From positions 1 to 53,415 of the IMG/VR virus record IMGVR_UViG_3300032087_000658: a DNA stretch of 53,415 nt; one strand, 5' to 3'. The notes under the pieces were generated by a model. That model saw only the letters and a program-made list of their open reading frames with translations, searched no databases and had not been told where the DNA came from. Origin of the DNA: a virus. The number at the start of each line of letters is the position of its first letter. Within the stretch, counting starts at the first letter, position 1. Shown piece by piece: positions 15,169 through 39,677 of the stretch. The position numbers and the translations under genes were made by a program.

Positions 15169-16206
15169 TTGAATAACTTAAACAACAACTACCCAACACT
15201 AACAAATAGAACATTTGGTCTTGAGTTAGAATTCGTTGGAGTATCACCTAGAACTGTAGCAGAGACTATCAACAACCTTGATGGTATTGAGTGTTACTTT
15301 GAAGGGTATCATCATACTACTAGACCATATTGGAAGATTGTTACAGATGCTTCTTTAGATGGAACTGGTGGTGAAATCGTTAGTCCAATACTAAAAGGTG
15401 TTGAGGGTGCTAAGCAATTAGAAACTATACTTAATGCCTTAGATAACTTAGAAGGTATTAGGGTTAATGTTCAATGCGGTTTGCATGTTCACCTTGATGT
15501 TAATGATCTCACAGTTGCAGAGATACAATCTGTTTATGAGAGATACGCTGACTATGAAAGCCAAATTGATATGGTTATGCCTAGAAGTCGTAGAGGTAAT
15601 AATTCTAGATGGTGTGCAAGTGTTACTAACACAGCTGGTAGAATCAAAAATGTAAGAGGTAGAACTAAATCTGCTCTTGCAAATGCAGCTGGTAGATATT
15701 ACAAAGTAAATTTACAAAGTCTAACTAGATACGGAACAATGGAGTTCAGACAACACAGTGGTACTCTTAACTTTGACAAGATTATTAACTGGGTTAGCTT
15801 CTTAATGGCTTTTGTTGAAAAAAGTGCAAAGCTTTCAAATCAAGTTAAAACTCCTAAAACAAACAGAGTTTACTCAACAGTAAGAAATGCAGTTGAAAAT
15901 GCTGGTTATACAATGGAGTGGAACAGAGGACATAACATTTGGACTGTAGAGAAAAATAACGAACATTTTGCTGCTTTTTCAAATCATACTTTAAACAGAC
16001 TATACAGCGGTAGCAGAGAGTCTAGCATTGACTTAAACATGTTGGTTGACCTTTTGATTGATAGAGGAATTTTAGATTGTGCATCACAAGCTAACTTCCA
16101 AAAACCAGTTGTTGTAGAAAGCAATGAGGTTGATAACGGATGGTTAGATGGTTGTGATAACAAAGTGCAGACATTTTACCAAGAAAGAGAATTAGAATTA
16201 AATTAA
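15169..16206 (+). CDS. Amidoligase family protein (TTG start)
   Basis: 345 aa, member of the Amidoligase_2 family (glutamine-synthetase-like COOH-NH2 ligases that form amide or isopeptide bonds using ATP). Seen: FGLELEFVG (16-24), the metal/ATP-binding stretch TDASLDGTGGEIVSP (59-73), CGLHVHLD (103-110) and a later MEFRQHSGTLN. The start is TTG: AAGGAG at 15157-15162 is 6 bases upstream and no ATG fits. It is paired with a gamma-glutamylcyclotransferase-like gene 14 bases downstream, a pairing described for amidoligases thought to modify proteins or make peptides. Substrate unknown; a cell-wall peptide, glutamate-containing metabolite or capsid/host protein are all possible. Confidence 0.85.
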   Translation: MNNLNNNYPTLTNRTFGLELEFVGVSPRTVAETINNLDGIECYFEGYHHTTRPYWKIVTDASLDGTGGEIVSPILKGVEGAKQLETILNALDNLEGIRVNVQCGLHVHLDVNDLTVAEIQSVYERYADYESQIDMVMPRSRRGNNSRWCASVTNTAGRIKNVRGRTKSALANAAGRYYKVNLQSLTRYGTMEFRQHSGTLNFDKIINWVSFLMAFVEKSAKLSNQVKTPKTNRVYSTVRNAVENAGYTMEWNRGHNIWTVEKNNEHFAAFSNHTLNRLYSGSRESSIDLNMLVDLLIDRGILDCASQANFQKPVVVESNEVDNGWLDGCDNKVQTFYQERELELN

Positions 16207-16220
16207 TATAAGGAGATAAT

Positions 16221-16703
16221 ATGAAAAAGAATATTCTAAAAATGAAACAGAAGCCTACAAAAAACATGCAGTATTTGTATGGTGCTTATGGTAGCAACAT
16301 GAACCTCATGCAAATGTCTACTAGATGCCCACATGCAAAACCAGTTGGCAGTGTTTTTGTAGAAGGCTTTGCATTGAAGTTTAGAGGTGTTGCTGATATT
16401 GAACACACTAAAGAATCAAGAGTGCCACTTGCTTTATGGCAGATTACAGATGCTTGTGAAGCTAGGCTAGATATATATGAGGGGTTTCCTAGTTTATATC
16501 GTAAACAAATTCTACAGATACCAGCTTTAAAAAATAAGTTTGGTACTGACAGGGTAATGGTTTACATTATGAACAGCAAAGATGTTTATCCACCATCTAG
16601 CCGATACTTAGAAGGTATTGCACAAGGTTACAATGACTTTGGTATTGATACTGATACTTTAATGTACGCAGTCAAAGATTCGTATAGTCAAACTAACATA
16701 TAA
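16221..16703 (+). CDS. Gamma-glutamylcyclotransferase-like protein
   Basis: 160 aa of the GGCT/AIG2-like fold. The ligand loop YGAYGSNM (20-27) and the likely catalytic Glu87 in ARLDIYEGFP are present. Such enzymes cleave gamma-glutamyl amide bonds with release of 5-oxoproline. Encoded 14 bases after the amidoligase, with AAGGAG before the ATG, so the two probably act on the same gamma-glutamyl-type linkage, one making it and the other removing it. The first 15 residues are basic and may start instead at a later Met. Confidence 0.8.
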   Translation: MKKNILKMKQKPTKNMQYLYGAYGSNMNLMQMSTRCPHAKPVGSVFVEGFALKFRGVADIEHTKESRVPLALWQITDACEARLDIYEGFPSLYRKQILQIPALKNKFGTDRVMVYIMNSKDVYPPSSRYLEGIAQGYNDFGIDTDTLMYAVKDSYSQTNI

Positions 16704-17728: not shown

Positions 17729-18005
17729 CTGACTCTATCCTCGCTTTGTTTATAACTGGTTCCATATACCAGTATTTATATTTACCTAAATACAAATAAA
17801 CACAAGGATAGGTTCTACCATTATGATTAGTGTATTCTTCCTCTACGCCATGTAATTCTATCATGCGTTTTAAAATTTCGTAAAGATATGGTTGTTCTTT
17901 ATATCTGATATACCAATGTGGTGCAAACTTTGCATAGCTTTTTGCCCAAATCCATTTCACTGAATTACAATGTTCTTCAAGACTTTTCCAGTCTACTTTT
18001 GACAT
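17715..18005 (-). CDS. Small aromatic-rich protein between ParB-like and PAPS-reductase-like genes
   Basis: 96 aa, rich in Trp and Tyr (KWIWAKSYAKFAPHWYIRY, YLYLGKYKYWYMEP). No family recognised. It overlaps the ParB-like gene by 14 bases and the PAPS-reductase-like gene by 1 base, so all three are surely co-translated and probably work together. Its size and residues suggest a small globular partner or adaptor; that is inference. Confidence 0.6.
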   Translation of the reverse strand: MSKVDWKSLEEHCNSVKWIWAKSYAKFAPHWYIRYKEQPYLYEILKRMIELHGVEEEYTNHNGRTYPCVYLYLGKYKYWYMEPVINKARIESDGKI

Positions 18006-19138
18006 TAGAAAGTTGGTTTACCACCCCAGTAACCAGCACCTTTTCTAAACTCTTCAGGTTCCATATATTTGAGAATATTACATTTAAGTGCAAAAGGGTC
18101 ACCGTTCCAAAGTGCCATAGCTAGTTTTTTATAAGAACCAATTGGGTTGGCTCGTAAAGAATTTATTTGTGGAAAGGGTATACCTCCGTTTGCTCTTATG
18201 TGTGCTTCTAGTTGTTTCTTGTAAACAAACTCTGCTCTTTCTGCAATCCAATCAGGTGCTTCATCTATACATTCTCTTTTAAAACATTGTTCCCATGTTT
18301 CACCACTTCTTCTACTTGGTTGACATGATATTTTTCCAAATTGTGTAACTGTCCTGATGCCATCAAGTCTATGACATACTTTGTCAAACCATTGAGGCCA
18401 TGCCTTTTGTGCTAGTTGTAGGTCAGGAATACCAGCTGTTGTCATTGTTAGTGGTGCAATCCTTAATTTATTTTTTGATCTCCCATGCTTTACCATCACA
18501 TCATATGCGTGATTATAATCCCATTGAAAATCTTGGATAGCTTTCCATATATCACCATCAGTCCAATCATAGATAGGTCTCACATATTTTGTACCTCTAT
18601 CATTTGGTTTTGTAATATGTCCTTTACTAGAAAATAAACCCATTCTTCTATTAGGACTTTCTTGCACTCTTAGACCGATACATGCAAACAAGTCTTTTCC
18701 TTCAGCTACTGGAAACCTTTCTTTTGTAACTAAAGCGTTTATGTTTTTTTCTTCTATCTGATAAGCATATTCAGGTGGTTGTCTGACCCATTCTTCTCTT
18801 GGTACTTGCTCATCAAAAATCCACCAGTAGGGATTTTTTCTATTAAAGACGTTTACCACTGGTTGTCCTGCCCAAACATGATGCATATTAACTTCAGGTC
18901 TATTGGCTACTCTATCTAAATATTCATATGTGTTTGGAAATAATATTTCTTCGTCACGATGTATGACATTTATAGGTAATTTACCAGCAGCATCAGCTGC
19001 CATGATTGCTAATTCCATACATACAGTAGAGTCTTTACCTCCACTTTGCGAGATCACAATTGTATGGTCTTGTTCATATAATTCTTGCAGTCTATTTAAA
19101 GCTGCATCAAATACGTTCATGTTAAGATTTAATTTCAT
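18005..19138 (-). CDS. PAPS-reductase-like PP-loop protein (IbrA/YbdN type)
   Basis: 377 aa. The N-type ATP pyrophosphatase PP-loop SGGKDS is at 32-37, followed by INVIHRDEEILFPNTYEYL, as in phosphoadenosine phosphosulfate reductases, and YVRPIYDWTDGDIW. The C-terminal half (CQPSRRSGETWEQCFKREC, YMEPEEFRKGAGYWGGKP) is typical of the IbrA/YbdN group, which carries DUF3440-like sequence. These proteins are not true sulfate reductases; they probably adenylate a substrate or handle sulfur. Paired downstream with the ParB-like gene. DNA phosphorothioation-like chemistry is possible, but no other Dnd or Ssp genes are present. Confidence 0.82.
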   Translation of the reverse strand: MKLNLNMNVFDAALNRLQELYEQDHTIVISQSGGKDSTVCMELAIMAADAAGKLPINVIHRDEEILFPNTYEYLDRVANRPEVNMHHVWAGQPVVNVFNRKNPYWWIFDEQVPREEWVRQPPEYAYQIEEKNINALVTKERFPVAEGKDLFACIGLRVQESPNRRMGLFSSKGHITKPNDRGTKYVRPIYDWTDGDIWKAIQDFQWDYNHAYDVMVKHGRSKNKLRIAPLTMTTAGIPDLQLAQKAWPQWFDKVCHRLDGIRTVTQFGKISCQPSRRSGETWEQCFKRECIDEAPDWIAERAEFVYKKQLEAHIRANGGIPFPQINSLRANPIGSYKKLAMALWNGDPFALKCNILKYMEPEEFRKGAGYWGGKPTF

Positions 19139-27825: not shown

Positions 27826-28033
27826 CAGAAGAATACATTATATTTAACCCAGCTAAAGTGCATAGACGATTTTTTTCATCTAGACCTTTTTCTGTGAGAT
27901 CATAATTTTGTCCATTAACTTTGATGTAACCATCTGTAATTAATGCAGTCAATAAATCACTAGGTATATCATCACCAAACATAACTGTTAATATGCCACC
28001 TAATCTTTTAGTTTGTGTTTTACTTAGTGCCAT
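27806..28033 (-). CDS. Small unknown protein after endolysin
   Basis: 75 aa with a winged-helix-like pattern (LLTALITDGYIKVNGQNYDLTEKGLDE). The start overlaps the endolysin stop by 1 base, making it the last gene of the lysis operon. Its end lies inside the opposing early-operon terminator. Function unknown; a late regulator is possible. Confidence 0.5.
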   Translation of the reverse strand: MALSKTQTKRLGGILTVMFGDDIPSDLLTALITDGYIKVNGQNYDLTEKGLDEKNRLCTLAGLNIMYSSEKKSST

Positions 28034-28476
28034 TAAACGTGTTCCCAGTCATTACCCTCAAATAATAATGATTCTGCTAATCTTCTTCTTGTTAATCCTT
28101 CAAGAACTTTGCCACCTGCTTTGTTCCATCGTTTCATCTGATAAGGCACATCTTCATACGCACCTTGATTTAAAACTTTTAACATAGTTGAAGCGTTTAA
28201 ATTTGCACCACCAAGATTAAATGTCCAAGATACTAATGCATCAAACTGGTGTTGATGTAATGGAAGCTTTACTGCTTTATTGACAGCATCTTCATAGACT
28301 ACTAAATCTTCTAGCAATAATTCTTCTGCACGTTCTTGTGATATGGTCATGCCCATTTGTATACCTTTAGTTGAACCATAACCAATGGTAGGTACATTAG
28401 CAGCACATAAATAACTTTCTAATTTGCACCCTTCAAACTTCTTGATAAGTGCGATTCCTTCTTGTGATATCTTCAT
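28033..28476 (-). CDS. Endolysin, glycoside hydrolase family 24 (T4-lysozyme type)
   Basis: 147 aa from the ATG at 28476, chosen because GGGGAGA is just upstream; the longer reading adds an unrelated N-terminus. It hydrolyses peptidoglycan at lysis. IALIKKFEGCKLESYLC and PTIGYGSTKGI give catalytic Glu15, with Cys24 and Thr30 at the positions of T4 lysozyme Asp20 and Thr26 (an E-C-T triad, found in many GH24 endolysins). SWTFNLGGANLNASTML and WNKAGGKVLEGLTRRR are typical later motifs. No signal-anchor sequence, so a holin should be needed. Confidence 0.92.
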   Translation of the reverse strand: MKISQEGIALIKKFEGCKLESYLCAANVPTIGYGSTKGIQMGMTISQERAEELLLEDLVVYEDAVNKAVKLPLHQHQFDALVSWTFNLGGANLNASTMLKVLNQGAYEDVPYQMKRWNKAGGKVLEGLTRRRLAESLLFEGNDWEHV

Positions 28477-28477
28477 A

Positions 28478-28873
28478 TTATTCTCCCCATGTTCCATCTT
28501 CTCGGACTTTGGCTTTCTTTGTGCCACCCCAGTATTCAACTGCGTGTCCTTCTTTAATAAGAATCTGACAAATGCTTTTATTATTTTCATCATAAGGTAT
28601 TCCCAGTATTCTTCCGTACTTGCCCTTTCCTAGTGATTGTACTTTGAAAGCACCAACACATAGTTCTATAAGTCTTTTTTTTGCTTTTAAACCTAGTGCT
28701 TTTTCTTCTAAATTTCTTGTGCGTGATTCAGGAGTATCTATCCCTGCTAATCGCACTCTTTGTTTATGGAGTTTGACATCAAAGCCTAAATCAAGAGTCA
28801 CATCTATGGTGTCTCCATCTATTACCCTTTCTAGTATAGCGTTGTATACGAATGGCGTGACCGATTCAGACAT
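28478..28873 (-). CDS. Thermonuclease-like (SNase) protein
   Basis: 131 aa of the staphylococcal nuclease fold: ILERVIDGDTIDVTLDLGFD, VRLAGIDTPESR (with catalytic Arg41 and Asp46), LGKGKYGRILGIPYDEN and EGHAVEYWGG. It may degrade host DNA or DNA released at lysis. No signal peptide, so it acts in the cytoplasm or as a virion-borne protein. It lies between the holin candidate and endolysin, with one base to the endolysin start, which is an unusual place for a nuclease. Confidence 0.85.
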   Translation of the reverse strand: MSESVTPFVYNAILERVIDGDTIDVTLDLGFDVKLHKQRVRLAGIDTPESRTRNLEEKALGLKAKKRLIELCVGAFKVQSLGKGKYGRILGIPYDENNKSICQILIKEGHAVEYWGGTKKAKVREDGTWGE

Positions 28874-29087: not shown

Positions 29088-29480
29088 TTATTTGTTCTCT
29101 GACACCTTTTCTTCTTCATTATCTTCTTTGTCATAATCTCTATAATATTTGATAATTGATAAAGTATCTCTTAAATATCTTTTAATTTCTGCCATATTCA
29201 TAGATAGGTTTTCGTACTCTTTACTGGTTAATGAATAATAAGCAATGGCAGGAGCAGAGCCATTCTCGTAATTTTCTAGGTACTCTTTCATTAAATCAGG
29301 AGTTAATATTTCCCAGTCAATATCAACCAATCCAACTTCTAGGGGTAAAGGTGGATGGTAAAGGGGGACTGGCTCTGCAATCGTTACGACCTCAACAGGT
29401 TTAGCAGTGGGCATCATAGAACAGTTTGCAATAACAAAAAGACATGATATTAATATTATGCTTTTAATTTTCATCATCAA
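29088..29480 (-). CDS. Outer-membrane spanin lipoprotein (o-spanin, Rz1-like)
   Basis: 130 aa. Signal peptide (KIKSIILISCLFVIANC) with the likely lipidated Cys20; the residue before it is Asn, not the usual Gly/Ala. A Pro-rich stretch follows (VPLYHPPLPLEVG), then VDIDWEILTPDLM and YYSLTSKEYENLSMNMAEIKRYL, seen in spanin-type proteins of many marine phages. It overlaps the i-spanin gene by 17 bases. The pair would fuse inner and outer membranes at the last step of lysis. Confidence 0.75.
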   Translation of the reverse strand: MMMKIKSIILISCLFVIANCSMMPTAKPVEVVTIAEPVPLYHPPLPLEVGLVDIDWEILTPDLMKEYLENYENGSAPAIAYYSLTSKEYENLSMNMAEIKRYLRDTLSIIKYYRDYDKEDNEEEKVSENK

Positions 29481-29859
29481 ACTGGTTTGGGTCTGTTAAA
29501 GCTATTATTTCTTCTTTGACTTTTTTAGTTCCCTTGTTCACAATATTTTCTATTAACTTAGGTTTGCTCAATGCTAAATTATCTAAATCATGTTTTGCAA
29601 AGGTTGTTCGTAGTTTGTTTACTTCTCTTACTGCTTCCTGTTTTTCTTTTTCTATTGCTTGTATCTGCTTTTGTGCCTTCTCTTGGTTGGCAAGATAAGT
29701 TTTAATTGATTCGTTTTGTTGTGCTATTGATTGTTCTAAGGCTATCTGATTGCCTTTTAAAGTAGAGATATTGTCTTGTAATCTATCAATATACCAAAAT
29801 GAACCACTAGCAGTAACTAGCAATAAACCACCTAGTATTATTGATAATTTGAATCCCAT
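29464..29859 (-). CDS. Inner-membrane spanin (i-spanin, Rz-like)
   Basis: 131 aa. One N-terminal transmembrane anchor (LSIILGGLLLVTASGSFWYI), then a long coiled coil of Gln/Lys/Glu repeats (EQSIAQQNESIKTYL, KAQKQIQAIEKEKQEAV), and a KHDLDNLALSKPKLIENIVN motif typical of phage Rz-like proteins. Located in the periplasm apart from the anchor. The ATG overlaps the cyclase stop by about 22 bases, which ties the cyclase to the lysis operon. Confidence 0.8.
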   Translation of the reverse strand: MGFKLSIILGGLLLVTASGSFWYIDRLQDNISTLKGNQIALEQSIAQQNESIKTYLANQEKAQKQIQAIEKEKQEAVREVNKLRTTFAKHDLDNLALSKPKLIENIVNKGTKKVKEEIIALTDPNQFDDEN

Positions 29860-31616
29860 GTATACACCTGTAATTTCTCGCTTTTACCTTTAGCTTCTAT
29901 TGGGTCTAAAGGTATCAAATCAAATTCTATCGCATTTTCTGTACTTTGACCAATTAGGAGATCAACACCAGCGTTTTTAGTTCCTGATTCTAATCTTGCT
30001 GCTACATTGACTGCATCACCGATAGCTGTGTAATCAAATCTATTTTCACTACCCATATTTCCTATAACCGCATATCCAGTGTTAATTCCTATGCCAATGG
30101 TTACTGGATTTATACCTTTGTCTGCTAAAACATAATTCAGTTCTATCATATTTTTTTGTATATCCATAGCACAAGCCAACGCCTTTGTTTCATGATTTTC
30201 TAAATCAAGGGGTGCATTAAAAATCGCCATCATGGCATCACCAATATATTTATCAACCATACCCCCATGCTTTTGTACTGCTTTTTGTTGAGCAGTAAGT
30301 GCTTGGTTCATAATGTAAGTCACCTGTTCAGGTTCTAGTGTTTCTGATAAAGCTGTAAACCCACGAACATCTGTAAATAAAAATGTTGCGTATCTTTTTT
30401 CTCCACCAAGTTTTAAAAGTTCAGGATTTTTTTGCAGTTGTTTTACTTGTCTTGGGTCTAAATAATGTTCAAATTGTTTCTTAATTTGTAATCTAAGTTT
30501 GTATTGTTCTCTAAATCTTAGATAAAAAGCTATAGAACCTGTAATAAACTGTGAGATCAATGTCCATGTTACATCTAACAAAATACCCCTGTGAATAAGT
30601 TCATATCCTGTATAAGCTGTTGATAACATTATTCCTAGACCTAATACTAAACCCCATGTTATGCCTAAAGTGTTCAATACAAGCCATATAAGGCTTACTG
30701 ATACAATAAATATAAGCATTTCTACAGCTAATGACCAATCAGGTATGTAAGGACTATCTTGTATTAAGATTGATTCTGCTAAAGCACTTTGTATTTTATG
30801 TGGTTCTAATAATCCAACTGGTGTTGCTATCTGTGGCATAACACCATTTGCTGTTACTCCTACAAATACAAACTTACCTGCTACATCCATTTCTTTTAAT
30901 GTAGTTTGTGGCGTATCTACCCAACTTATCCACTTACGACCAAGACTGTCTGTTTTTACTGGTGGTATTCCTCTAATTGATATTTCCTCTATACCATTAT
31001 CATTAGTTTTTATAATGTAAGTTCTAACATCAAATAATGCTTTGTATATTTGTGTACCGAATGATGGTATCCATTCTTTTTTAGGTGTGCTTACAAGTAG
31101 TGGGATTCTTCTAACAAGTTGGTCAACTTCGGTGGGAGCAATGGCTAATCCCTGTAATGTATTATCTGCTAGAGTGTTCAGGTTTTCCTTAACTCCCATA
31201 GATACTATACCATCAACATGGTTGCCTTTGACAACAGTACCAGTAGCTTTTGGGTATTTATTTTTGCCATCTTCAAACATTGCTATAACAGATGGTATGT
31301 ATCCCAAAGTCTTTGCAAAAACTTGATCTCCACCCATTCTATCTGCTTGTGGAAAAGATATTACCCAACCTACCCCTATAGCACCTGAATTAATAAGGTC
31401 TACTTGTATCTCTGCTAATCTTCTTCTTGGAAAAGGATAACCGCCTTCGTTTTCTACATCTTCTTCTGTGATGTTTAATATTACAAAGTTACCTGATGGC
31501 TCATATTTTTTTACAAAGGTATCAAAGGTTTTTAGTTTTAATATTTCAGTTGGTGTGCTTTGATATATAAAAGGTAAACATAAAATTAGTAGTATGGGTA
31601 TGAGCAATTTTTTCAT
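29838..31616 (-). CDS. CHASE2-sensor adenylate cyclase (class III)
   Basis: 592 aa. An N-terminal signal anchor (KKLLIPILLILCLPFIY) leads to a CHASE2 sensor (about 25-290), a periplasmic domain found only in signalling proteins. Three transmembrane segments follow (about 295-375) and then a cytoplasmic cyclase domain (412-590). Catalytic residues are all there: metal-binding Asp416 (FLFTDVRGFT) and Asp460 (DKYIGDAMM), adenine-specifying Lys456 and Thr530 (FDYTAIGD), and transition-state Asn537 and Arg541 (NVAARLE). The Lys/Thr pair fits class IIIb adenylate cyclases. It would make cAMP in response to a periplasmic signal. Full-length, not degraded. Between FecR and the spanin genes; no strong own promoter was seen. 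Confidence 0.93.
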   Translation of the reverse strand: MKKLLIPILLILCLPFIYQSTPTEILKLKTFDTFVKKYEPSGNFVILNITEEDVENEGGYPFPRRRLAEIQVDLINSGAIGVGWVISFPQADRMGGDQVFAKTLGYIPSVIAMFEDGKNKYPKATGTVVKGNHVDGIVSMGVKENLNTLADNTLQGLAIAPTEVDQLVRRIPLLVSTPKKEWIPSFGTQIYKALFDVRTYIIKTNDNGIEEISIRGIPPVKTDSLGRKWISWVDTPQTTLKEMDVAGKFVFVGVTANGVMPQIATPVGLLEPHKIQSALAESILIQDSPYIPDWSLAVEMLIFIVSVSLIWLVLNTLGITWGLVLGLGIMLSTAYTGYELIHRGILLDVTWTLISQFITGSIAFYLRFREQYKLRLQIKKQFEHYLDPRQVKQLQKNPELLKLGGEKRYATFLFTDVRGFTALSETLEPEQVTYIMNQALTAQQKAVQKHGGMVDKYIGDAMMAIFNAPLDLENHETKALACAMDIQKNMIELNYVLADKGINPVTIGIGINTGYAVIGNMGSENRFDYTAIGDAVNVAARLESGTKNAGVDLLIGQSTENAIEFDLIPLDPIEAKGKSEKLQVYTWDSNYQ

Positions 31617-31648
31617 AGATACATCATAACAGAAAAGTACAAAAAGGG

Positions 31649-31676
31649 TTGTTTATTACAAATAAATATCTATAAT
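31649..31676 (+). promoter_or_regulatory. Sigma70-like promoter P3 with operator half-site
   Basis: TTGTTT (31649-31654), 16-base spacer, perfect TATAAT (31671-31676): same boxes and spacing as P2. GGGTTGTTTATT is identical to P2 around the -35. The first half of the shared operator (TGTTTATT) is kept at 31650-31657, but the second arm is not. AAAGGAG at 31695-31701 serves the next gene. Confidence 0.75.
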
Positions 31677-31706
31677 TATATTTATATTAATTTGAAAGGA
31701 GATATT

Positions 31707-32195
31707 ATGAATATATTTGCAGTAGAACAATGCCCTGAACAAGCCGCTAGAGCTTTACCTGATAAACTGATAGTTAAAATGCCATTAGAAACAGCACAAA
31801 TGCTTTCTACGGCACACAGATATCTTAGTCCTACAGAGTATTGTGAAGAAAAAAACTTATACAAGAAAGCATATTACAACCATCCTTGCACTGTTTGGGC
31901 AAGAGAAACACATGAAAACTATAGATGGTTGCTAATACATTTTATAACTTTGTGCGAAGAATACTATTTGCGATATGGCAGAATACATGCTTCTTGGGAT
32001 AAATTATGGGATGGCTTAAAAATATTTCCAATGAATATTAAAGAAGGCAGCTTAACACCTTTTGCACAAGCTATGCCTGAACAATACAAAAACCCTGTTG
32101 ACCATATTGATGCATATCGTACATACATGATTGCAGAAAAGCATTATGCAAAATGGGAAAAAGGTAGAGACAAGCCTGTTTGGTGGTCTAATTAG
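31707..32195 (+). CDS. Conserved phage protein of unknown function, MNIF-type
   Basis: 162 aa from the ATG at 31707 with AAAGGAG upstream. Motifs: MNIFAVEQCPEQAARALPDK, LETAQMLSTAHRYL, NHPCTVWARETHENYRWLL, LTPFAQAMPEQYK, and an end with KWEKGRDKPVWW. I recognise this as a widespread phage protein in T4-like and T7-like marine phages with no agreed function; a resemblance to pyrimidine-dimer glycosylases has been suggested for layout only and I cannot confirm it. It is the only plus-strand gene in a 25-kb minus-strand block and has its own early-type promoter. Confidence 0.7.
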   Translation: MNIFAVEQCPEQAARALPDKLIVKMPLETAQMLSTAHRYLSPTEYCEEKNLYKKAYYNHPCTVWARETHENYRWLLIHFITLCEEYYLRYGRIHASWDKLWDGLKIFPMNIKEGSLTPFAQAMPEQYKNPVDHIDAYRTYMIAEKHYAKWEKGRDKPVWWSN

Positions 32196-33285
32196 ATTGT
32201 GTAATCTTTATTGTGCTACCCTCACCACCATTAATGGTAACAATGTTTGAAACACCATTTTGTATAAAGATAACAGTATAACTCGCACTTCCATCTATAT
32301 CTATTCTTGCTGAACTTTCTACACTTCGTAACAAAGTTAATTTTTCACCAGTATAGAAAGTTGTAATCTGTGTTTCTAAGTCTTGACCAAACTTTGTACC
32401 TTTAATGTTGGTTGTTATGGCATCTTGACCAAGCACATCTTCTTCTTTTGCAACTTCTAATGCATCTATAACATCTAGCAAATCTTCTAGGAAGTTGACA
32501 TCAAGATAGTTTATATCTAATTCTGTAAACTCTAATTCATCTTCTTTTAAAAAATCTTCTTCTAAGTAATCTATATCTAAATCATCAAAGTCTAAGATAT
32601 TTTTCTTCTGCACTACAGTTTCTTCACCTTCAATAATTTGTTCTTCAGGTGGTGTCACTATTAACATATTGTCTATGAGATCAAGCGTTAAATCTAAAAT
32701 TACTGGACGTGTTGGAGAATTTTCAAATACGGATACAGTTGTTGCTTCATAAGGTTTATTTAAAATAACACTACCTGTAGCTGTCATAACCTCTATTTCA
32801 CCACTAGATAAACCATATTTATCAGGTAAAAGAATTATAAGACTACGTCCAAGTTCATCTACAGTTGCTGTAAAGTCTGTTCCTCTAATGGCTATATTTG
32901 CTGTGGGTGTTTTAAGTTGTATGTTTTGTTTATCAATTTTGTTTAGATTGCCTGTAATAAACCTTGCTGTTCCTAATCCAAAGGTAAGAGCCATCTTTGA
33001 TTTAGATGGGTCAGGGTCATAGATATATTCGTCAATTAATAATTCAGAGTGTTCTGTTAATCTAACTGTTGAATCATCAAGAAAGGTAATAGCCATACGA
33101 CCATTAGTAGTTATGGCTTGATCATTACTTTGTATGCCGAGGTTTAATTCAGCTTGTAATGGTTCGTCTCTTAATATTCGTGCAACACCATTTAGTTCTG
33201 ATATATCACCTATATCAACAACCTGTTGCTGTTCCCCCATCGTTTTGAGTGATACAAATATTAGAGTTAGAAGTAGTAGTCTCAA
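32188..33285 (-). CDS. Secreted FecR-domain protein
   Basis: 365 aa. Short signal peptide (RLLLLTLIFVSLKTMG) and a FecR domain at about 40-170: GDISELNGVARILRDEP, NGRMAITFLDDSTVRLTEHS, LGTARFITGNL and the typical TPTANIAIRGTDFTATVDE. It is not the usual sigma-factor regulator with an inner-membrane segment; the whole protein is exported. The rest holds an acidic region of DLDIDYLEEDFL-like repeats and a beta-rich C-terminus. It overlaps the curlin-like gene by 71 bases. In bacteria, FecR proteins are often seen next to CHASE2 cyclases, so it may be the cyclase ligand; that link is inference. Confidence 0.82.
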   Translation of the reverse strand: MRLLLLTLIFVSLKTMGEQQQVVDIGDISELNGVARILRDEPLQAELNLGIQSNDQAITTNGRMAITFLDDSTVRLTEHSELLIDEYIYDPDPSKSKMALTFGLGTARFITGNLNKIDKQNIQLKTPTANIAIRGTDFTATVDELGRSLIILLPDKYGLSSGEIEVMTATGSVILNKPYEATTVSVFENSPTRPVILDLTLDLIDNMLIVTPPEEQIIEGEETVVQKKNILDFDDLDIDYLEEDFLKEDELEFTELDINYLDVNFLEDLLDVIDALEVAKEEDVLGQDAITTNIKGTKFGQDLETQITTFYTGEKLTLLRSVESSARIDIDGSASYTVIFIQNGVSNIVTINGGEGSTIKITQSN

Positions 33286-33949
33286 TTTTTAACCAATCCT
33301 TTGCAAGTGTTGATGATTGTATGATGTTAAATGTATTACTGCTACCATCTAAATCCATGTAAAAATATCCTGAATCAGATGATGTGTTTCCTGAATATCC
33401 ACTAGCTGTAAAGTTGATAGTGTTTGAACCACCATTAATATCTACAAAGTTAATAGCATTAGCATAATCAATATCAAAATTTAATTCATTAGAATCACCT
33501 AAGATTGTCCAGTCTAAATCAAGATAAGATGAATCAGCGTTTTCTGCTATTTCTAAATCAAATTCATTACTGCTTCCAGTAACATCTAAATATAGATTTA
33601 TGTAATCTGCACTTATAAGACCAGTGCTATTTAATAAGATATCCATAACATTACTATCACCATCAAACTCAAAGAACCCAGTAAAGTTATCACCATCAAT
33701 AGCATCTGACCTAAAGATATTGCTTGAACCAATCTGATTAATATCTAAAGTCATACTAATACCATCAAGGTCAAGAGCAGTCATAGTTCCTGATACAGCA
33801 GAACTACCACCAATGAGGTTAGAGCTACCAAGTTGTTCTAAATCTATGGAAGCAGTATTACCGCTTTGGTCTACATAAATTTCATTATCCGCGTATGTTT
33901 GCAATGCAGTCATCATCACAAACAGGCTCATTAATTTCATTTTCTTCAT
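33215..33949 (-). CDS. Curlin-repeat-like secreted protein
   Basis: 244 aa. Signal peptide with likely cleavage after TYA (residue 20). Then about seven imperfect units, each closing with G-[SDG]-S-N: residues 41-44, 74-77, 97-100, 125-128, 151-154, 173-176 and 202-205, spaced 22-33 residues. The first units (YVDQSGNTASIDLEQLGSSN and LDINQIGSSN) match the curlin repeat pattern with Gln and Asn at set positions; later ones lose the Gln and turn Asp-rich. It is probably a beta-solenoid protein secreted through the adjacent CsgG pore. No CsgA/CsgB gene otherwise. Two Cys near the end (232 and 244) may form a disulfide. Confidence 0.78.
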   Translation of the reverse strand: MKKMKLMSLFVMMTALQTYADNEIYVDQSGNTASIDLEQLGSSNLIGGSSAVSGTMTALDLDGISMTLDINQIGSSNIFRSDAIDGDNFTGFFEFDGDSNVMDILLNSTGLISADYINLYLDVTGSSNEFDLEIAENADSSYLDLDWTILGDSNELNFDIDYANAINFVDINGGSNTINFTASGYSGNTSSDSGYFYMDLDGSSNTFNIIQSSTLAKDWLKIETTTSNSNICITQNDGGTATGC

Positions 33950-34757
33950 ATTTCCAGTACCCTTTATCGTAACCGATAATAATAAGTTCTAATACAGCAC
34001 CTTCTATAGCTTTCATTAAGGCTATAGTAGTACTCTCGTTGCGTGAAACACCAAATTCCACTTCAACTAACTCAGTACCCATTTCTATGAATTTAAACAC
34101 ATCTTGTGACTGTCCATAGCTAAGTATTGTCTTACTAGACATTACTTCTACTAGTATTTCACCAGTAGCTACAGAAACCATTCTAAGGCTTACAGTGATT
34201 GTATCTTCACGATACTGCACACTAGAGCCTATTCCTAAATATCTTGCTCCTGCACCACCTGTGATTAGGTTACTATCATACGACACAACAGCACCTTCAA
34301 GCAATACACCTGCAAACAGCAAAGGCATTATAGTTTTTTTATCTTCTAATTCTTCTCTTGTACTTCTAATAATTTGTCTTTCTTTTGTTAAGTTATCTAA
34401 ACCAACTCTTTCAACAACTCTAAAAAATTCACCATTACTTGCGTGTTTTAATGCTCTTATTAATAGATTGCTTGGTGCTTGAGTTATAGCACTAGAAAAT
34501 AAAGCAAACTCACTGTTGCTCTTCCTTTGTCCTGTTTGGTCTGTAAAAGCAGTTGGATATACAGCAACTACTGGTTTTGTTTGTGGTGCTTGTACGTTTA
34601 ATAAATCCTGTGACTGTAAAGAAAAAATACTAGGCTTATCTTTGCTTTTATGTTGGAATCTTATCTGTTGCGTGTCCTCTATGACACTATTAATAGAACA
34701 ACTAGAAAGTAAAAGAACCAATAGGTAATGTGATCTCTGTAATATTGCCATCTGCAT
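33885..34757 (-). CDS. csgG-like: CsgG-like outer-membrane curli secretion lipoprotein
   Basis: 290 aa. Signal with lipobox LLSSC and lipidated Cys20. Matches E. coli CsgG along its length: VAVYPTAFTDQTGQRK, the constriction-loop region (NSEFALFSSAITQ, 81-93), RVVERVGLDNLTKERQIIR, LLFAGVLLEGAVVSYDSN, TGGAGARYLGIGSSVQYR, VNVSTGEIL-like VSVATGEIL, SSKTILSYGQ, and a last helix ending YDKGYWKY. CsgG forms a nonameric pore that exports unfolded curli subunits. By eye, the E. coli pore Tyr51/Asn55/Phe56 are Ser82/Leu86/Phe87 here, so the gate is changed. It overlaps csgF-like by 56 bases and the curlin-like gene by 65 bases. Confidence 0.93.
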   Translation of the reverse strand: MQMAILQRSHYLLVLLLSSCSINSVIEDTQQIRFQHKSKDKPSIFSLQSQDLLNVQAPQTKPVVAVYPTAFTDQTGQRKSNSEFALFSSAITQAPSNLLIRALKHASNGEFFRVVERVGLDNLTKERQIIRSTREELEDKKTIMPLLFAGVLLEGAVVSYDSNLITGGAGARYLGIGSSVQYREDTITVSLRMVSVATGEILVEVMSSKTILSYGQSQDVFKFIEMGTELVEVEFGVSRNESTTIALMKAIEGAVLELIIIGYDKGYWKYEENEINEPVCDDDCIANIRG

Positions 34758-35229
34758 CAGTTATTTTAAGTGTTATAAATTGTCCATCAGATGTGTATTC
34801 TATAGTATTACCTTCAAGTTCTATAGTACCTTCAGTTTGTGGGGTTTCACCGAAAAGATTATCTACAAGTTGTCTTGATAGTTGAGCATAGATACGTGAC
34901 TCTAAGTTACGCATAAATCTTGCAAGTGTGGTGTTCTCTTTATCTCTTTCTATTTGTTCTTGTAAGGCTTTAATCTCTTCTTTGATTGTCATCTTCCTAT
35001 TAAACTCTTGGTTTTCAATAGTCAAGTAATGTGAACTCGTGTTGATGCCACTAAAAGATGGTGATTTGAACTTATGAACTATTTGGTCTGCTTTTATGTT
35101 AATTACTAAAATACCAATCAATAAAATAAAACCAATAACTGTAACTGTGTAAGCAATTCTATTTTTACTTAATTCTTCTGCTTTACGTTGTTTTTTTGTC
35201 ATTTTTTTCTTAATCTTTTCTTTGGTCAT
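34702..35229 (-). CDS. csgF-like: CsgF-like curli accessory protein with N-terminal membrane segment
   Basis: 175 aa from the ATG at 35229; AAAGG lies upstream and a TTG six codons earlier is less likely. Residues 54-61 (FKSPSFSG) match the CsgF start FRNPNFGG, which plugs into the CsgG pore. Then RNLESRIYAQLSRQLVDNLFG and the beta end GQFITLKITDADGNITEITL follow the order of CsgF. Unlike E. coli CsgF, the protein has a basic cytoplasmic start and one membrane segment (about 25-44) with no clear cleavage site, so it may stay in the inner membrane and span the periplasm by the long helix at 78-112. Next gene is csgG-like. Confidence 0.82.
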   Translation of the reverse strand: MTKEKIKKKMTKKQRKAEELSKNRIAYTVTVIGFILLIGILVINIKADQIVHKFKSPSFSGINTSSHYLTIENQEFNRKMTIKEEIKALQEQIERDKENTTLARFMRNLESRIYAQLSRQLVDNLFGETPQTEGTIELEGNTIEYTSDGQFITLKITDADGNITEITLPIGSFTF

Positions 35230-35560
35230 CTCTATCCGCCTTTGCAATTTTACTGCTATCTATTAACTGTGGTACTCCTAAAATAGTTTTTATAAGGGTG
35301 TCTTGTCTTATGATTTCATTATCTAAGCTACGCACTCTATCAATTAATGCTACAAGTATTCCATGTTGTGAGTCAAGTTTTGTGCCTAATCGTTCTTCAA
35401 TAGCTGCTATCTGTGATTCTACTTTTTCATCAACATTATCAAGTTTGGTTTCCATGCCATCTACAATACGCATGATTAATTTATATATAAACCATCCTAA
35501 ACCAATTGCTGCTGCTATTGGAAAACCAACTTCTTGAATTACTTTTATTGCTGCATCCAT
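35210..35560 (-). CDS. Small membrane protein with coiled coil
   Basis: 116 aa. One N-terminal transmembrane segment (GFPIAAAIGLGWFIYKLI) then a long coiled coil (MRIVDGMETKLDNVDEKVE, AAIEERLGTKLDSQHGIL). Such proteins lie beside tail-fibre and lysis genes in many phages and are sometimes called holins or tail-associated membrane proteins. It overlaps the csgF-like gene by 20 bases. As it is encoded at the junction of tail and curli modules, either link is possible; the role is unknown. Confidence 0.55.
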   Translation of the reverse strand: MDAAIKVIQEVGFPIAAAIGLGWFIYKLIMRIVDGMETKLDNVDEKVESQIAAIEERLGTKLDSQHGILVALIDRVRSLDNEIIRQDTLIKTILGVPQLIDSSKIAKADRDDQRKD

Positions 35561-35562
35561 AA

Positions 35563-35907
35563 TTATTCAACTATAGGTGAAACTTCATCTGCTCCATAAA
35601 TTTGCCATGTAAAATACACGTCTAAATCATCTTCTGTAACTGTGTTTTTATACCATTCTATTACTTTAGCATTCGTTAAATTTTCTACTAATATAAAATC
35701 ACTTGGTAGACCATTATCTTGTATTGAATAAACTCCATCTAAAGATGAATACATTTTCTCAGTCATGGTTTGTGTATTGTCTGCTTGGTCAACAGCTGAT
35801 ACTTCTACACAAACATTTTTAACAATTTGCGTATCATCATTTTGACTTAGTGGCATAGTTGATATGCTGTCAAAAGTGTATGTGTAGTTAAAATTATGTA
35901 CTGCCAT
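35563..35907 (-). CDS. Unknown tail-region protein
   Basis: 114 aa, beta-rich with NYTYTFDSISTMPLSQND and a C-terminal acidic end. It resembles small phage proteins found after the tail tip gene, in which the start describes a beta hairpin and a W near residue 70-85 (VIEWYKNT). No function known. It is coupled to the tail tip gene (overlap of 1 base). Confidence 0.5.
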   Translation of the reverse strand: MAVHNFNYTYTFDSISTMPLSQNDDTQIVKNVCVEVSAVDQADNTQTMTEKMYSSLDGVYSIQDNGLPSDFILVENLTNAKVIEWYKNTVTEDDLDVYFTWQIYGADEVSPIVE

Positions 35908-38900
35908 TATATTTCTGAAAATTTGTAAAAACCTAGTTGTACATTGCTCAATTGTCTATTGTTACCATCGCCTTGTGCTAAAATATAAACACTTAAAGTT
36001 CTACTTGTACCACTTATTTTTCTAATCATAAAATCTTTTTGCACCATTTTATAAGTTGAGTCAAATCTATCTACACCTGACCATGTTTGTGCTTGACCTG
36101 AATTATACTGAGCATAACCCTGATTTGCTATTGGTAAATTTAATGCAAATAACTGGTCTACACCATATGCAAAATCATCTCTTAATTCAAAACTAAAACC
36201 TGTTCCATAAGTACCATCACCTGCAACAATAGATAGAGTTTTAACCTGTCCACTTCCTCCAAAAACTCTGCAAAAAATATGATATATACCTGTAGCTGTT
36301 CCAATATCTGCAACTTTTTTCAAACGCATTGTATTGCTCTGCCAAGAACCTATAGTAGAACCTGAAACTGTTTGTGCATCAAAATCAAGAGCTAAATCAG
36401 TAACATTAATTCTATCAGCAGTAATAGTGTTTGAAGCAATTTGTGTAGCTGTTATTGTGCCTGTGGCTATTTCTGTAGCTGTTACCTGTCCAGCAGCAAT
36501 TTTTGCTGTAGTTATTGCATCAGCATTGATTTTATCAGTAGTAATAGCATTAGATATAATTTTATCAGCAGTAATTGCGTTAGAAGCTATTTCTGTAGCA
36601 GTAATTGTTCCTGCTGTAATTTTAGCAGCAGTAACAGCATTGGCAGCAAGTTCATCAGTAGCAATTGCACCAGCAGCAATATTTGAAGCTGTGATTGTAT
36701 CTGTAGCTATTTGTGTTGAAGTGATAGTACCAGCAGCGATCTCACTAGCTGTTATTTGATTTGCTGCAATTTTTGCAGTGGTAATAGCATTAGCAGCAAT
36801 CTTATCTGTAGTAATAGCATCAGCAATAATCTTATTAGCTGTAACTGCATTTGTGGCTATGGTATCGGCAGTTATTGCACCTGCATTAATCTTTGCAGTC
36901 GTAATAGCGTTAGCAATAATTTTATCTGATGTGATTGCATTTGTTTGAATGTTATCAGCAACAATTGCGTTTGCAGCAACTTTATCAGCAGTCACAGCAT
37001 CAGCTGCTATTTTTACAGCAGTAATGGCGTTACTTGCAATAGTGTCAGCTGTAACAGCACCTGCGTTTATTTTTGCAGTCGTAATTGCATTTGCAGTTAT
37101 CTTTGCGGTTGTTATTGCATTATCACTTATTTTTGTACTAGTTATAGCATTAGCTGCAAGATTTGCAGTCTGAACAGCATTATCTGCAAGTTTTGCGTTT
37201 GTGACTGCATCTGTACCTAGTTTTGTATTTGTAATAGCACCTGTGGCAATTTTTGCTTCACTTATAGCATTTGCAACTATCTGTGCTGTATTTACTGCGT
37301 TATCAGCTATTTTGGCATTGGTAACAGCATCAACACCCAATTTTGCTTCTACGATAGCACCAGCAGCAATAACATCACCTTGTATAGCATCTACTGCTAT
37401 TTTTGCATTAGTAACTGCTTCAGATGCTAGTTTTACAGTTGTAATTGCACCATCTACTATTTCTCCTGCATCTACGTTTGTAAAACTACCTGTAGCTACA
37501 GAAGTAAATGCTGAATGTACGTCTGAATGATTTACAGACCTTGCCCAAAAATAATACGTTGTACCAGCAGTTAAACCATCTTGTGTTCCAAACAAAGTAC
37601 TAGTCTTTTTACCATTTTGCCCATAAATCGTTTCTACTAAATAAGTGTCATCTGTTGGTGTTGTATTTGATGTTCTTCTATAAATCTTAGTTGCCTTGAG
37701 ATCAGCACTAGTTGAATTTATCCAAGATACAACTATGTTAAATGCTTGTCCTGTTGATGCAGTTAAACTTGTTGGTACTGCTGGTGCATCTGTTGGTGCT
37801 GCTATTGTTATATTAACAACACTGGTATAAGCACTAGCTACACCATTTACGTCAATATGTCGTGCTTTTACGTTATAAGTTTTTCCAACTACAACATTAG
37901 GGAGAAGGGCTACAGCAACACCTTTTCCTACAGTAAAGTCAGATGTATATGCACCATCTGTACTTAGCTTATACGCCACCTCTGTAAGTGTGACCTTATC
38001 GCTAGAGTTGTTTGTCCACGTAGCTTTTATATCTACTTTGGTTGTAACACCATCTTTGTTTGTTTGTTGTGCTAGTGCTAAGTTTGATGGTGCTGTTACT
38101 GCATATGTACCAGTACCGACATCACTACCTTCTGATTGACCAGTTGTATAATCACTTGTAGCAAAATTAAATACACTAGATGCGACTTCTTTTAGTTCCA
38201 ACTGTGTAGCCATAACAGGAATATCACCATCTGTTATAACTTGCATATTAGTGGATATTACTTCAAAGACTTTTTGACTGTAACCCATTCTTTCGTTGGT
38301 TAAATATACCCAATCGTTAGGTTGTAGTCGCATATATTTTAAAGTTACTAAACAAGATATTGATGTGGTCTGTCTTTGACTTTTTAATGCTATTCTGCCT
38401 AATCTTTGTGCCATTGTATCTGTAACTGTAAATGGCAATTGTGATTCCATTTGTTTTACATAATTAGCAGTAGATTCGCCACTAGGTGTATCTGCATTAA
38501 GCATTGTAGTATCTTGGTGAACTTCAGCATCAGCTGCTACATATCCTTGTGTAGAGTCAACATATAAAGGTTTAACACTATTGAATAAATTACCTGAACT
38601 TGGGTTTGTTTGTATTTGTACATCATTTAATAAATCATCATCAGTAATAATTAATGATGGTGTTTGTGATGCACCTGCAAAAACATTAAATTTACCATTT
38701 ACATAAGAAACTTTACCTGCCATAGAACTAAGTATTGATTCTATAATTCCATTACCATTTGCACTAAAGTTAGTAAATCCGTTTGACGTGTATCTTTTTT
38801 CTGTTGTAGAACCATCTGCTAAAGTTACATTTTGTTCACAGATATTAGCAGCACTTGCAAAACCACCTGCATTTGTTGTGTCATTAATCTCATCATTAGT

Positions 38901-39677
38901 AGCTTTAATACCATATTGAGTGTTTGTTAAATAGTCTCTAATTTGTAAAGCTGGATTATCTGTCCAAACAGTTGTGTTAGTTCTTGGGTCATAACACTTT
39001 TTACCTTTTACTAAAAATGATATTGCTGGTATTCCACCACCAAATTTTTCAGCATCAAAAACCATTTGAATATATACGTATGCAACATCTTGAAACTTAT
39101 CTGATGTACCCATTGAACTTAATTGTGCATTCATAAAACCATCAACAGCAGTTTGACTACCATCTTTGTATGAATAACGCATTAATCTACCACTACCAAA
39201 ATTATTATCGTTTTCAGTATTTGTATATTCTGAATTTGTTACTGTGTAAACAGTAGAACCACTTATAGTGCTGGTGCTAGTACTCAAATCTATATCATTA
39301 ACACGAACAGATGTGAGTTCTTCTATTTCGTGTCCTGCAATTGCAACAACAAGATGCAATAAATAGTTGTCATTTCCAGTAGTTTCCATGTGGACTATTG
39401 TTCCACCTACACGACATTTACCATATATTATTTGTCGTGGTGCTACAGCTTCCCTTGTTGCAAACTTACTACCAAAATTACCAGCTGAAGCATCAATACC
39501 TTTTGATGTCATCTTGCCAATAACACCACCAATTAAGGTTGTTGCAAAAGTAAATGCTGCTGCTGCTGCTGCACCACTTAAACCAAAAGCAGTGTATGCT
39601 ATATCAATACGACCTGTAGTTACTACTATAAATACTACAAGTGCTGCAATGACTGCTTGTTTAATCTGTTTAGCCAT
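35907..39677 (-). CDS. Tail tip / receptor-binding protein (lambda J-like) with long repeat
   Basis: 1256 aa. The start has a hydrophobic stretch (AALVVFIVVTTGRIDIAYT) and GLSGAAAAAAFTFATTLIGG. The region ASAGNFGSKFATREAVAPRQ, IYGKCRVGGTIVHMETTGND and LLHLVVAIAGHEIEEL is the usual beginning of J/central tail proteins. Fibronectin-type parts follow (about 510-740: TAPSNLALAQQTNKDGVTT, VPTSLTASTGQAFNIVVSW). Then about 35 copies of a 10-residue AITTAKIAAN repeat (about 740-1110) and a C-terminal globular domain. It probably forms the trimeric tail tip with a long stalk. Overlaps the NlpC-like gene by 8 bases. Confidence 0.85.
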   Translation of the reverse strand: MAKQIKQAVIAALVVFIVVTTGRIDIAYTAFGLSGAAAAAAFTFATTLIGGVIGKMTSKGIDASAGNFGSKFATREAVAPRQIIYGKCRVGGTIVHMETTGNDNYLLHLVVAIAGHEIEELTSVRVNDIDLSTSTSTISGSTVYTVTNSEYTNTENDNNFGSGRLMRYSYKDGSQTAVDGFMNAQLSSMGTSDKFQDVAYVYIQMVFDAEKFGGGIPAISFLVKGKKCYDPRTNTTVWTDNPALQIRDYLTNTQYGIKATNDEINDTTNAGGFASAANICEQNVTLADGSTTEKRYTSNGFTNFSANGNGIIESILSSMAGKVSYVNGKFNVFAGASQTPSLIITDDDLLNDVQIQTNPSSGNLFNSVKPLYVDSTQGYVAADAEVHQDTTMLNADTPSGESTANYVKQMESQLPFTVTDTMAQRLGRIALKSQRQTTSISCLVTLKYMRLQPNDWVYLTNERMGYSQKVFEVISTNMQVITDGDIPVMATQLELKEVASSVFNFATSDYTTGQSEGSDVGTGTYAVTAPSNLALAQQTNKDGVTTKVDIKATWTNNSSDKVTLTEVAYKLSTDGAYTSDFTVGKGVAVALLPNVVVGKTYNVKARHIDVNGVASAYTSVVNITIAAPTDAPAVPTSLTASTGQAFNIVVSWINSTSADLKATKIYRRTSNTTPTDDTYLVETIYGQNGKKTSTLFGTQDGLTAGTTYYFWARSVNHSDVHSAFTSVATGSFTNVDAGEIVDGAITTVKLASEAVTNAKIAVDAIQGDVIAAGAIVEAKLGVDAVTNAKIADNAVNTAQIVANAISEAKIATGAITNTKLGTDAVTNAKLADNAVQTANLAANAITSTKISDNAITTAKITANAITTAKINAGAVTADTIASNAITAVKIAADAVTADKVAANAIVADNIQTNAITSDKIIANAITTAKINAGAITADTIATNAVTANKIIADAITTDKIAANAITTAKIAANQITASEIAAGTITSTQIATDTITASNIAAGAIATDELAANAVTAAKITAGTITATEIASNAITADKIISNAITTDKINADAITTAKIAAGQVTATEIATGTITATQIASNTITADRINVTDLALDFDAQTVSGSTIGSWQSNTMRLKKVADIGTATGIYHIFCRVFGGSGQVKTLSIVAGDGTYGTGFSFELRDDFAYGVDQLFALNLPIANQGYAQYNSGQAQTWSGVDRFDSTYKMVQKDFMIRKISGTSRTLSVYILAQGDGNNRQLSNVQLGFYKFSEI
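36380..37470 (-). repeat. 10-codon tandem repeat in the tail tip gene
   Basis: About 35 in-frame copies of a roughly 30-bp unit encoding [AT]-[VI]-T-[ATS]-[ADT]-K-I-x-A-[ND]. Copies vary in sequence, showing purifying selection on the protein. Similar shorter arrays (DGxVTSAKLDTNI) occur in the fibre genes at 93-6908, 47025-48989 and 48991-51765. It likely forms a rod-like stalk. Confidence 0.8.

Follow-up and report, generated by a model that had tools for sequence, protein, structure and literature searches.

Phage cassettes joining curli-type export genes to a FecR-CHASE2 cyclase module, and how their parts could be wired

The marine phage record IMGVR_UViG_3300032087_000658 (positions 1 to 53,415; this whole stretch of 53,415 nucleotides is called the window below) carries a cassette of csgF-like, csgG-like, curlin-like, FecR-domain and CHASE2 adenylate cyclase genes. 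Hundreds of viral contigs show this gene order, far more than chance would give, and the comparison with bacteria demonstrates that two modules, each found without the other in the bacteria examined, have been united in phages. The data suggest how the parts could work together as one sensor. The reading tentatively preferred here is a hybrid cassette, in which the CsgF/CsgG exporter and its curlin are joined to a FecR-CHASE2 sensor and FecR would report the state of curli to the cyclase. A coupling of curli to cyclic AMP (cAMP) through FecR is plausible.

The original prediction named these genes in this order, with a secreted FecR, and Pfam matches bear it out, all five lying on the minus strand and the curlin-like gene being assigned through its homologues and a structural model. 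Annotations of Pelagibacter phage HTVC008M (KC465899.1) and Methylophilales phage Melnitz (MZ577097.1) already show this order. Type VIII genes with FecR and an adenylate cyclase, both termed putatively regulatory, were described in 2022 from nine podovirus genomes as well as from myoviruses (PMC9599517), and phage curli genes had been reported earlier (PMC7029224). The gene set is therefore not a discovery of this window, and the claim that the system is new had to be dropped. The genes concerned are as follows.

34702-35247, minus strand: csgF (alternative start near 35229); PF10614, E 3.5e-18
33885-34757, minus strand: csgG, outer-membrane curli pore; PF03783, 1.4e-49
33215-33949, minus strand: curlin-like repeat protein; alignment with the Melnitz and HTVC008M curlins, paired-strand repeat in the AlphaFold2 (AF2) model
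32188-33285, minus strand: exported FecR-domain protein; PF04773, 5e-10
32191-32223, minus strand: C-terminal strand of the FecR protein, ...STIKITQSN, a signature common to curlins
29838-31616, minus strand: CHASE2 class III adenylate cyclase; PF05226, 1.4e-23, and PF00211 (Guanylate_cyc), 1.9e-20

Viral relatives were gathered in two sets. The close set consists of the best 80 each of 575 FecR, 517 cyclase and 567 CsgG viral relatives, and is biased to near relatives because only the best 80 per scan were kept; its third (CsgG) part counts 69 loci, as 11 of the 80 were already in the first two. The distant set derives from viral scans with the HTVC008M cyclase (best 80 kept) and the Melnitz FecR. 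Loci L001-L003 were excluded, some contigs are present in more than one set, and co-occurrence was counted only over loci with enough flank, the others being given as cut.

Starting from FecR in the close set, CsgG was found upstream in 67/67 loci (13 cut), a curlin in 76/76 (4 cut) and the cyclase in 79/79 (1 cut). Starting from the cyclase, FecR was found in 73/73 (7 cut) and CsgG in 48/48 (32 cut), and starting from CsgG, the cyclase in 59/59 (10 cut). The distant set gave CsgG in 21/21 (0 cut) and the cyclase in 9/9 (12 cut) FecR loci, and FecR in 41/42 (38 cut) and CsgG in 33/34 (46 cut) cyclase loci. The repeated co-occurrence of FecR, CHASE2 cyclase and CsgG that had been anticipated for phages is thus confirmed. 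The single exception is a distant-set locus (L393) where a 1456-amino-acid open reading frame (ORF) and a short curlin-like ORF replace the 5' part.

This constancy bears on a somewhat unlikely alternative, a co-inherited but unwired package, in which the curlin would form an adhesive fibre (for sibling capture or a superinfection block) while FecR-CHASE2 would sense some unrelated cue, from the envelope or the environment, and make cAMP. Fibre roles have indeed been proposed (PMC7029224, PMC9599517), but no close-set locus with enough flank has one half alone, and the distant set holds only the exception just described.

Domains of the FecR and CHASE2 types are common in envelope sensing. When genomes were scanned with FecR, 79 bacterial loci were obtained, of which four (L232, L233, L234 and L280) were set apart as probable phage contigs in bins of metagenome-assembled genomes, because they hold the full or partial cassette; in L233 the CHASE2 cyclase is divided over two ORFs (4825-6663). 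Among the remaining 75 loci, CHASE2 was present on the same stretch in 22 (14 with a cyclase, and 8 from Pelagibacteraceae without one) and CsgG in none. CHASE2 was present in 89/190 Alphaproteobacteria, and 60 CHASE2 loci were hand-picked among the matches listed, best first and avoiding contig ends. A FecR-domain ORF lay within 3 kb of CHASE2 in 32 of these 60 and solely farther out on the same stretches in none, in agreement with the expectation that the two occur side by side in bacteria; no match to the CsgF, CsgG or curlin model was found in the 60. The same separation appeared from the curli side: CsgF was above the cut-off in 5/385 Alphaproteobacteria, and FecR or CHASE2 was found in none of the five CsgF regions (16 kb each). 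The expected association of FecR and CHASE2 with CsgG therefore stands for phages and fails for the bacterial CHASE2 loci. Since the bacteria examined keep the two halves apart, the conclusion is that phages joined the FecR-CHASE2 sensor to the curli exporter; this separation also favours the unwired alternative.

Six FecR-adjacent CHASE2 proteins without a cyclase hit ended, according to Pfam, in SpoIIE (3), histidine kinase (2) or EAL (1) domains, so that the bacterial FecR-CHASE2 pairs, which are widespread, have four interchangeable outputs: cyclase, SpoIIE phosphatase, histidine kinase and EAL. An example from the SAR11 order, in which 10/58 genomes carry CHASE2, is a locus (L261, 6428-10375) with its own FecR and a CHASE2 protein ending in a SpoIIE phosphatase. 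As the outputs vary but FecR remains beside CHASE2, FecR is very probably the partner of CHASE2; this is the strongest evidence for that pairing.

The link of FecR to the curli side is suggested by its C-terminus. The window protein, which is 35-37% identical to the FecR proteins of HTVC008M and Melnitz, comprises a signal peptide (assigned by eye), a FecR domain (residues 59-144), an acidic linker and a C-terminal beta domain. Phage FecR proteins end in [IVL]x[IVL]xQ followed by 1-3 residues in 109/111 unique tails of the close set and 47/48 of the distant set, a motif defined after the FecR tails were seen and counted over family members that are not independent. In close-set curlins the signature lies within the last 20 residues in 84/85 and at the very end in 2/85; in the distant set it stands at the very end of the first curlin in 41/49 and of the second curlin in 16/44. 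Background ORFs have it at the end in 1/501 and 2/492, and within the last 20 residues in 2/501 and 0/492. It was found in no CsgG, CsgF or cyclase, and in only 2/74 bacterial FecRs. Its absence from CHASE2-linked bacterial FecRs (0/31) argues against the unwired package.

Partial correlations between distance matrices (74/94 contigs, each with all seven genes, duplicates removed) were 0.58 for curlin-FecR and 0.28 for FecR-cyclase (0/500 permutations as high), and -0.12 and -0.04 for curlin-cyclase and CsgG-cyclase, respectively. These values place FecR between curlin and cyclase, tied to both sides.

In the hybrid cassette, the curlin-like subunit would cross the outer membrane by way of CsgG and CsgF. 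FecR would act in the periplasm after export, its FecR domain contacting the CHASE2 part of the cyclase in the inner membrane, while its tail, ending in a curlin-type edge strand, would probably touch the CsgG/CsgF complex, the base of the fibre or curlin not yet exported. FecR could thereby relay the status of the curli line to the cyclase and set its output. In the lineage of the window, the signal would most likely act late in infection, because there the block runs into the lysis genes.

A more specific proposal, rather unlikely as it stands, is that the phage FecR gained a curlin-type edge strand that plugs into curlin or CsgG/CsgF and acts as a curli-export gauge. The host would thereby receive an outside-in signal of cAMP or another cyclic nucleotide, which it may otherwise lack; in the lineage of the window, the neighbouring lysis genes would let the moment of cell opening depend on fibre formation or contact. 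In SAR11, where neither a class III cyclase nor a CRP-type receptor was found, a new effector would be required for this nucleotide. The cassette also suggests that marine phages may supply their hosts with a signalling pathway, beyond a mere fibre. The curlin-type FecR tail is, in any case, a candidate coupling point that is concrete and testable.

On the output side, the window cyclase has its CHASE2 domain at residues 12-307 and its catalytic domain at 410-583, and its sequence matches in the PDB are class III cyclase structures. D416 and D460 (the metal aspartates), K456 (the substrate lysine) and N537 and R541 (the transition-state pair) are present in 35/35 close cyclase representatives. 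The 83 distant-set cyclase ORFs all keep the metal and lysine motifs, and the Asn motif is found in 76, with Ser instead in 6. With these residues intact, the cyclase should be active in most phages of both sets.

The CsgG protein has a lipobox-like N-terminus (LLSSC), and its family profile matches solved CsgG structures (1.6e-64 to 4.7e-63). The curlin-like ORF of the window matched no Pfam family and no PHROG. Curlin_rpt is found in its Melnitz and HTVC008M homologues, one of the two in HTVC008M reaching only E 1.1, under the cut-off. Its AF2 model shows a regular strand-turn-strand repeat (predicted local distance difference test, pLDDT, 76; predicted template modelling score 0.72), for which comparison with the PDB gave no match at E<=0.001. 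As a separate observation, a CsgG match was found in OR851715.1 (Salmonella phage S.Kent 1-2-1, 1499 bases), a 1.5-kb "phage" record that is probably host DNA.

The cassette lies in a longer minus-strand run from 35560 down to 28033, in the order small membrane protein, CsgF, CsgG, curlin-like, FecR, CHASE2 cyclase, Rz, Rz1, SNase and endolysin, with one plus-strand ORF between FecR and cyclase. The additional features are these.

35210-35560, minus strand: small membrane protein, holin-like, 116 amino acids; phrog_18771 / phrog_9829 (function unknown)
31692-32195, plus strand: Pyr_excise / phrog_624 ORF, on the opposite strand between FecR and cyclase; PF03013, 9.6e-10, and phrog_624, 1.9e-57
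29464-29859, minus strand: i-spanin (Rz-like), overlapping the cyclase by 22 bases; phrog_739, 6.6e-13
29088-29480, minus strand: o-spanin (Rz1-like); phrog_812, 4.7e-15
28478-28873, minus strand: SNase-like nuclease; PF00565, 7.8e-13, and phrog_452
28033-28593, minus strand: endolysin (phage lysozyme); PF00959, 5.9e-47

From the small membrane gene through FecR, successive ORFs overlap by 38, 56, 65 and 71 bases, and Rz and Rz1 overlap by 17 bases; the gaps in the run are 571 bases at the inserted Pyr_excise ORF and 214 bases ahead of SNase. Where flanks sufficed in the close set, spanins follow the cyclase in 54/64 loci, an endolysin follows in 64/66, and a small membrane gene precedes csgF in 57/64. 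Homologues of the small membrane protein precede csgF singly or as a pair (HTVC008M, Melnitz; loci L002, 2845-3407, and L003, 3210-3488). The window product has one N-terminal hydrophobic stretch and a coiled coil, with no confident Pfam family (a weak YvrJ match only). These pre-csgF proteins are probably, from their position, the "histidine kinase" of PMC9599517; that label is rejected for the homologues, as no kinase domain was found in the pre-csgF small proteins of the window, HTVC008M and Melnitz.

Such a setting would also suit a lysis-timing device, in which CsgG would open or depolarise the envelope late and FecR, CHASE2 and cAMP would tune the timing of the holin-like protein, spanins and endolysin. 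The ORF overlaps from the holin-like gene through FecR, and then from cyclase through Rz1, in the window lineage speak for it, as do the spanin and endolysin counts and the lysis role proposed for the Melnitz CsgG (PMC9004378). We nevertheless regard it as improbable, since function is not shown by position alone and the curlin and FecR are left unexplained; furthermore, no endolysin was found after the cassette, near the cyclase, in 38 distant loci with enough flank (42 cut; the window's endolysin as sole query), a result that counts against the hybrid reading as well.

Several other results weigh against the hybrid cassette. The AF2 model of FecR is poor (pLDDT 41.7), with an ordered beta domain at about residues 291-350 and little else, so that no interface could be judged from it; a VIA-align comparison of its fold gave no Z of 5 or more. 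The hhalign scores of the FecR tail and C-terminus against the curlin profile (16.1 / 15.3) were not significant, 40 control windows reaching up to 16.2, and Pfam Curlin_rpt was found in 0/46 FecRs. The idea that the tail is a full curlin repeat was ruled out on these grounds, and the tail is retained only as a C-terminal signature; the lack of significant similarity is also what the unwired package would lead one to expect. The partial correlations may reflect gene order alone, neighbours recombining together. The FecR-cyclase junction exceeds 250 bp in 41/216 pairs and holds an opposite-strand gene in the window. A Pyr_excise-like ORF occupies it in five of the 41 long-junction pairs, the window included, and in HTVC008M and Melnitz a second curlin does so, that of HTVC008M with a PA14 domain. 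Finally, class III cyclases were found in 0/58 SAR11-order genomes (a search limited to that cyclase class), and the domain binding cyclic nucleotide monophosphates (cNMP) in just 3/58 of these genomes and in 0/5 phage records, that domain being the only receptor type searched. With class III cyclases absent and cNMP-binding proteins nearly so, a cAMP effector is not evident in SAR11; were SAR11 a host, some unrecognised effector would have to respond to cAMP there. In the one examined of the three genomes with a cNMP-binding domain, the protein (SAR11-order locus L483, 1-2346, minus strand) has the domain joined to an acyltransferase and is a possible non-CRP cyclic nucleotide effector.

It has also been proposed, in PMC9599517, that FecR is an iron-dependent regulator of the curli genes. 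The protein does have a periplasmic FecR domain (PF04773), but its signal peptide start leaves no room for a cytoplasmic anti-sigma N-terminal part, the part by which FecR proteins of the FecIRA type are defined. Among the 10 neighbouring proteins scanned with Pfam there was neither FecI nor FecA, nor any other sigma factor or TonB receptor; the bacterial relatives of FecR adjoin CHASE2 proteins instead. Lacking both the anti-sigma part and the partner genes, iron regulation by FecR was rejected as the main explanation, and we hold it to be very improbable.

Elsewhere in the record, genes for a tape measure protein, head-tail adaptor, tail fibre, portal and large terminase were found, and one window protein matches central tail fibre J; from this content the phage is taken to be siphovirus-like. 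Among 50,697 phage records, every match to the terminase, capsid and primase of the window was below 60% identity, the best for the large terminase being Microcystis phage Mae-JY09 (49%) and Roseobacter phage CRP-6 (46%) and for the capsid Rhizobium phage RHph_X2_25 (49%). The window has a G + C content of 34%. Promoter and terminator counts in the window were no higher than in shuffles, and Rfam and tRNA scans of it gave zero matches. The record also contains an Amidoligase_2 gene adjoining a gamma-glutamyl cyclotransferase-like gene (15169-16703, plus strand), a phosphoadenosine phosphosulfate reductase-like gene (18005-19138, minus strand), and a tail-tip-like protein (35907-39677, minus strand) whose C-terminal half has a long series of near-identical short AITTAKI-like repeats.

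Among known systems, the E. coli curli gene set is csgBAC/csgDEFG. The cassette shares CsgG and CsgF homologues with it, but adds FecR and the CHASE2 cyclase, and its curlin repeats are too divergent for the Pfam model; CsgE, CsgD and CsgC had no match among the neighbouring window proteins scanned with Pfam. Bacterial FecR-CHASE2 pairs (Burkholderia, alphaproteobacterial and SAR11) resemble the cassette in that an exported FecR-domain protein adjoins a CHASE2 sensor, whereas the pairs examined have no CsgG, CsgF or curlin and no curlin-like FecR tail. In Burkholderia, an operon of LysM-FecR and a CHASE2 histidine kinase is tied to biofilm; the paper on it describes the cue recognised by CHASE2 as unknown (PMC5192318). 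The phage cassette is a minimal natural system: curli secretion as a candidate input and a cyclic nucleotide as output are encoded next to each other, and with it the question of what CHASE2 senses becomes directly testable. In S. meliloti, the outer-membrane barrel NsrA signals to the CHASE2 cyclases CyaD1, CyaD2 and CyaK by a protein signal (PMC13001267), and the Clr targets include a FecR-domain gene (PMC5498481). With its outer-membrane component, CHASE2 cyclases and cAMP, the NsrA system is a precedent for the phage route, but NsrA is not CsgG, no curlin is involved, and the link to FecR is just indirect.

The closest counterpart is the pelagiphage type VIII secretion cassette, which has the same csgF-csgG-curlin-FecR-cyclase order with one or two small genes ahead of csgF. 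The word CHASE2 does not occur in PMC9599517, and a full-text search for literature joining CHASE2 with FecR returned nothing on phages by title or abstract. The window differs in its siphovirus-like genome, with no near record among the phages compared, and does not have the second curlin of HTVC008M and Melnitz. Its block is followed by spanins and endolysin and interrupted by an opposite-strand insert between FecR and cyclase; the plus-strand Pyr_excise ORF and the setting among lysis genes and a small membrane gene are two features that the original prediction did not include.

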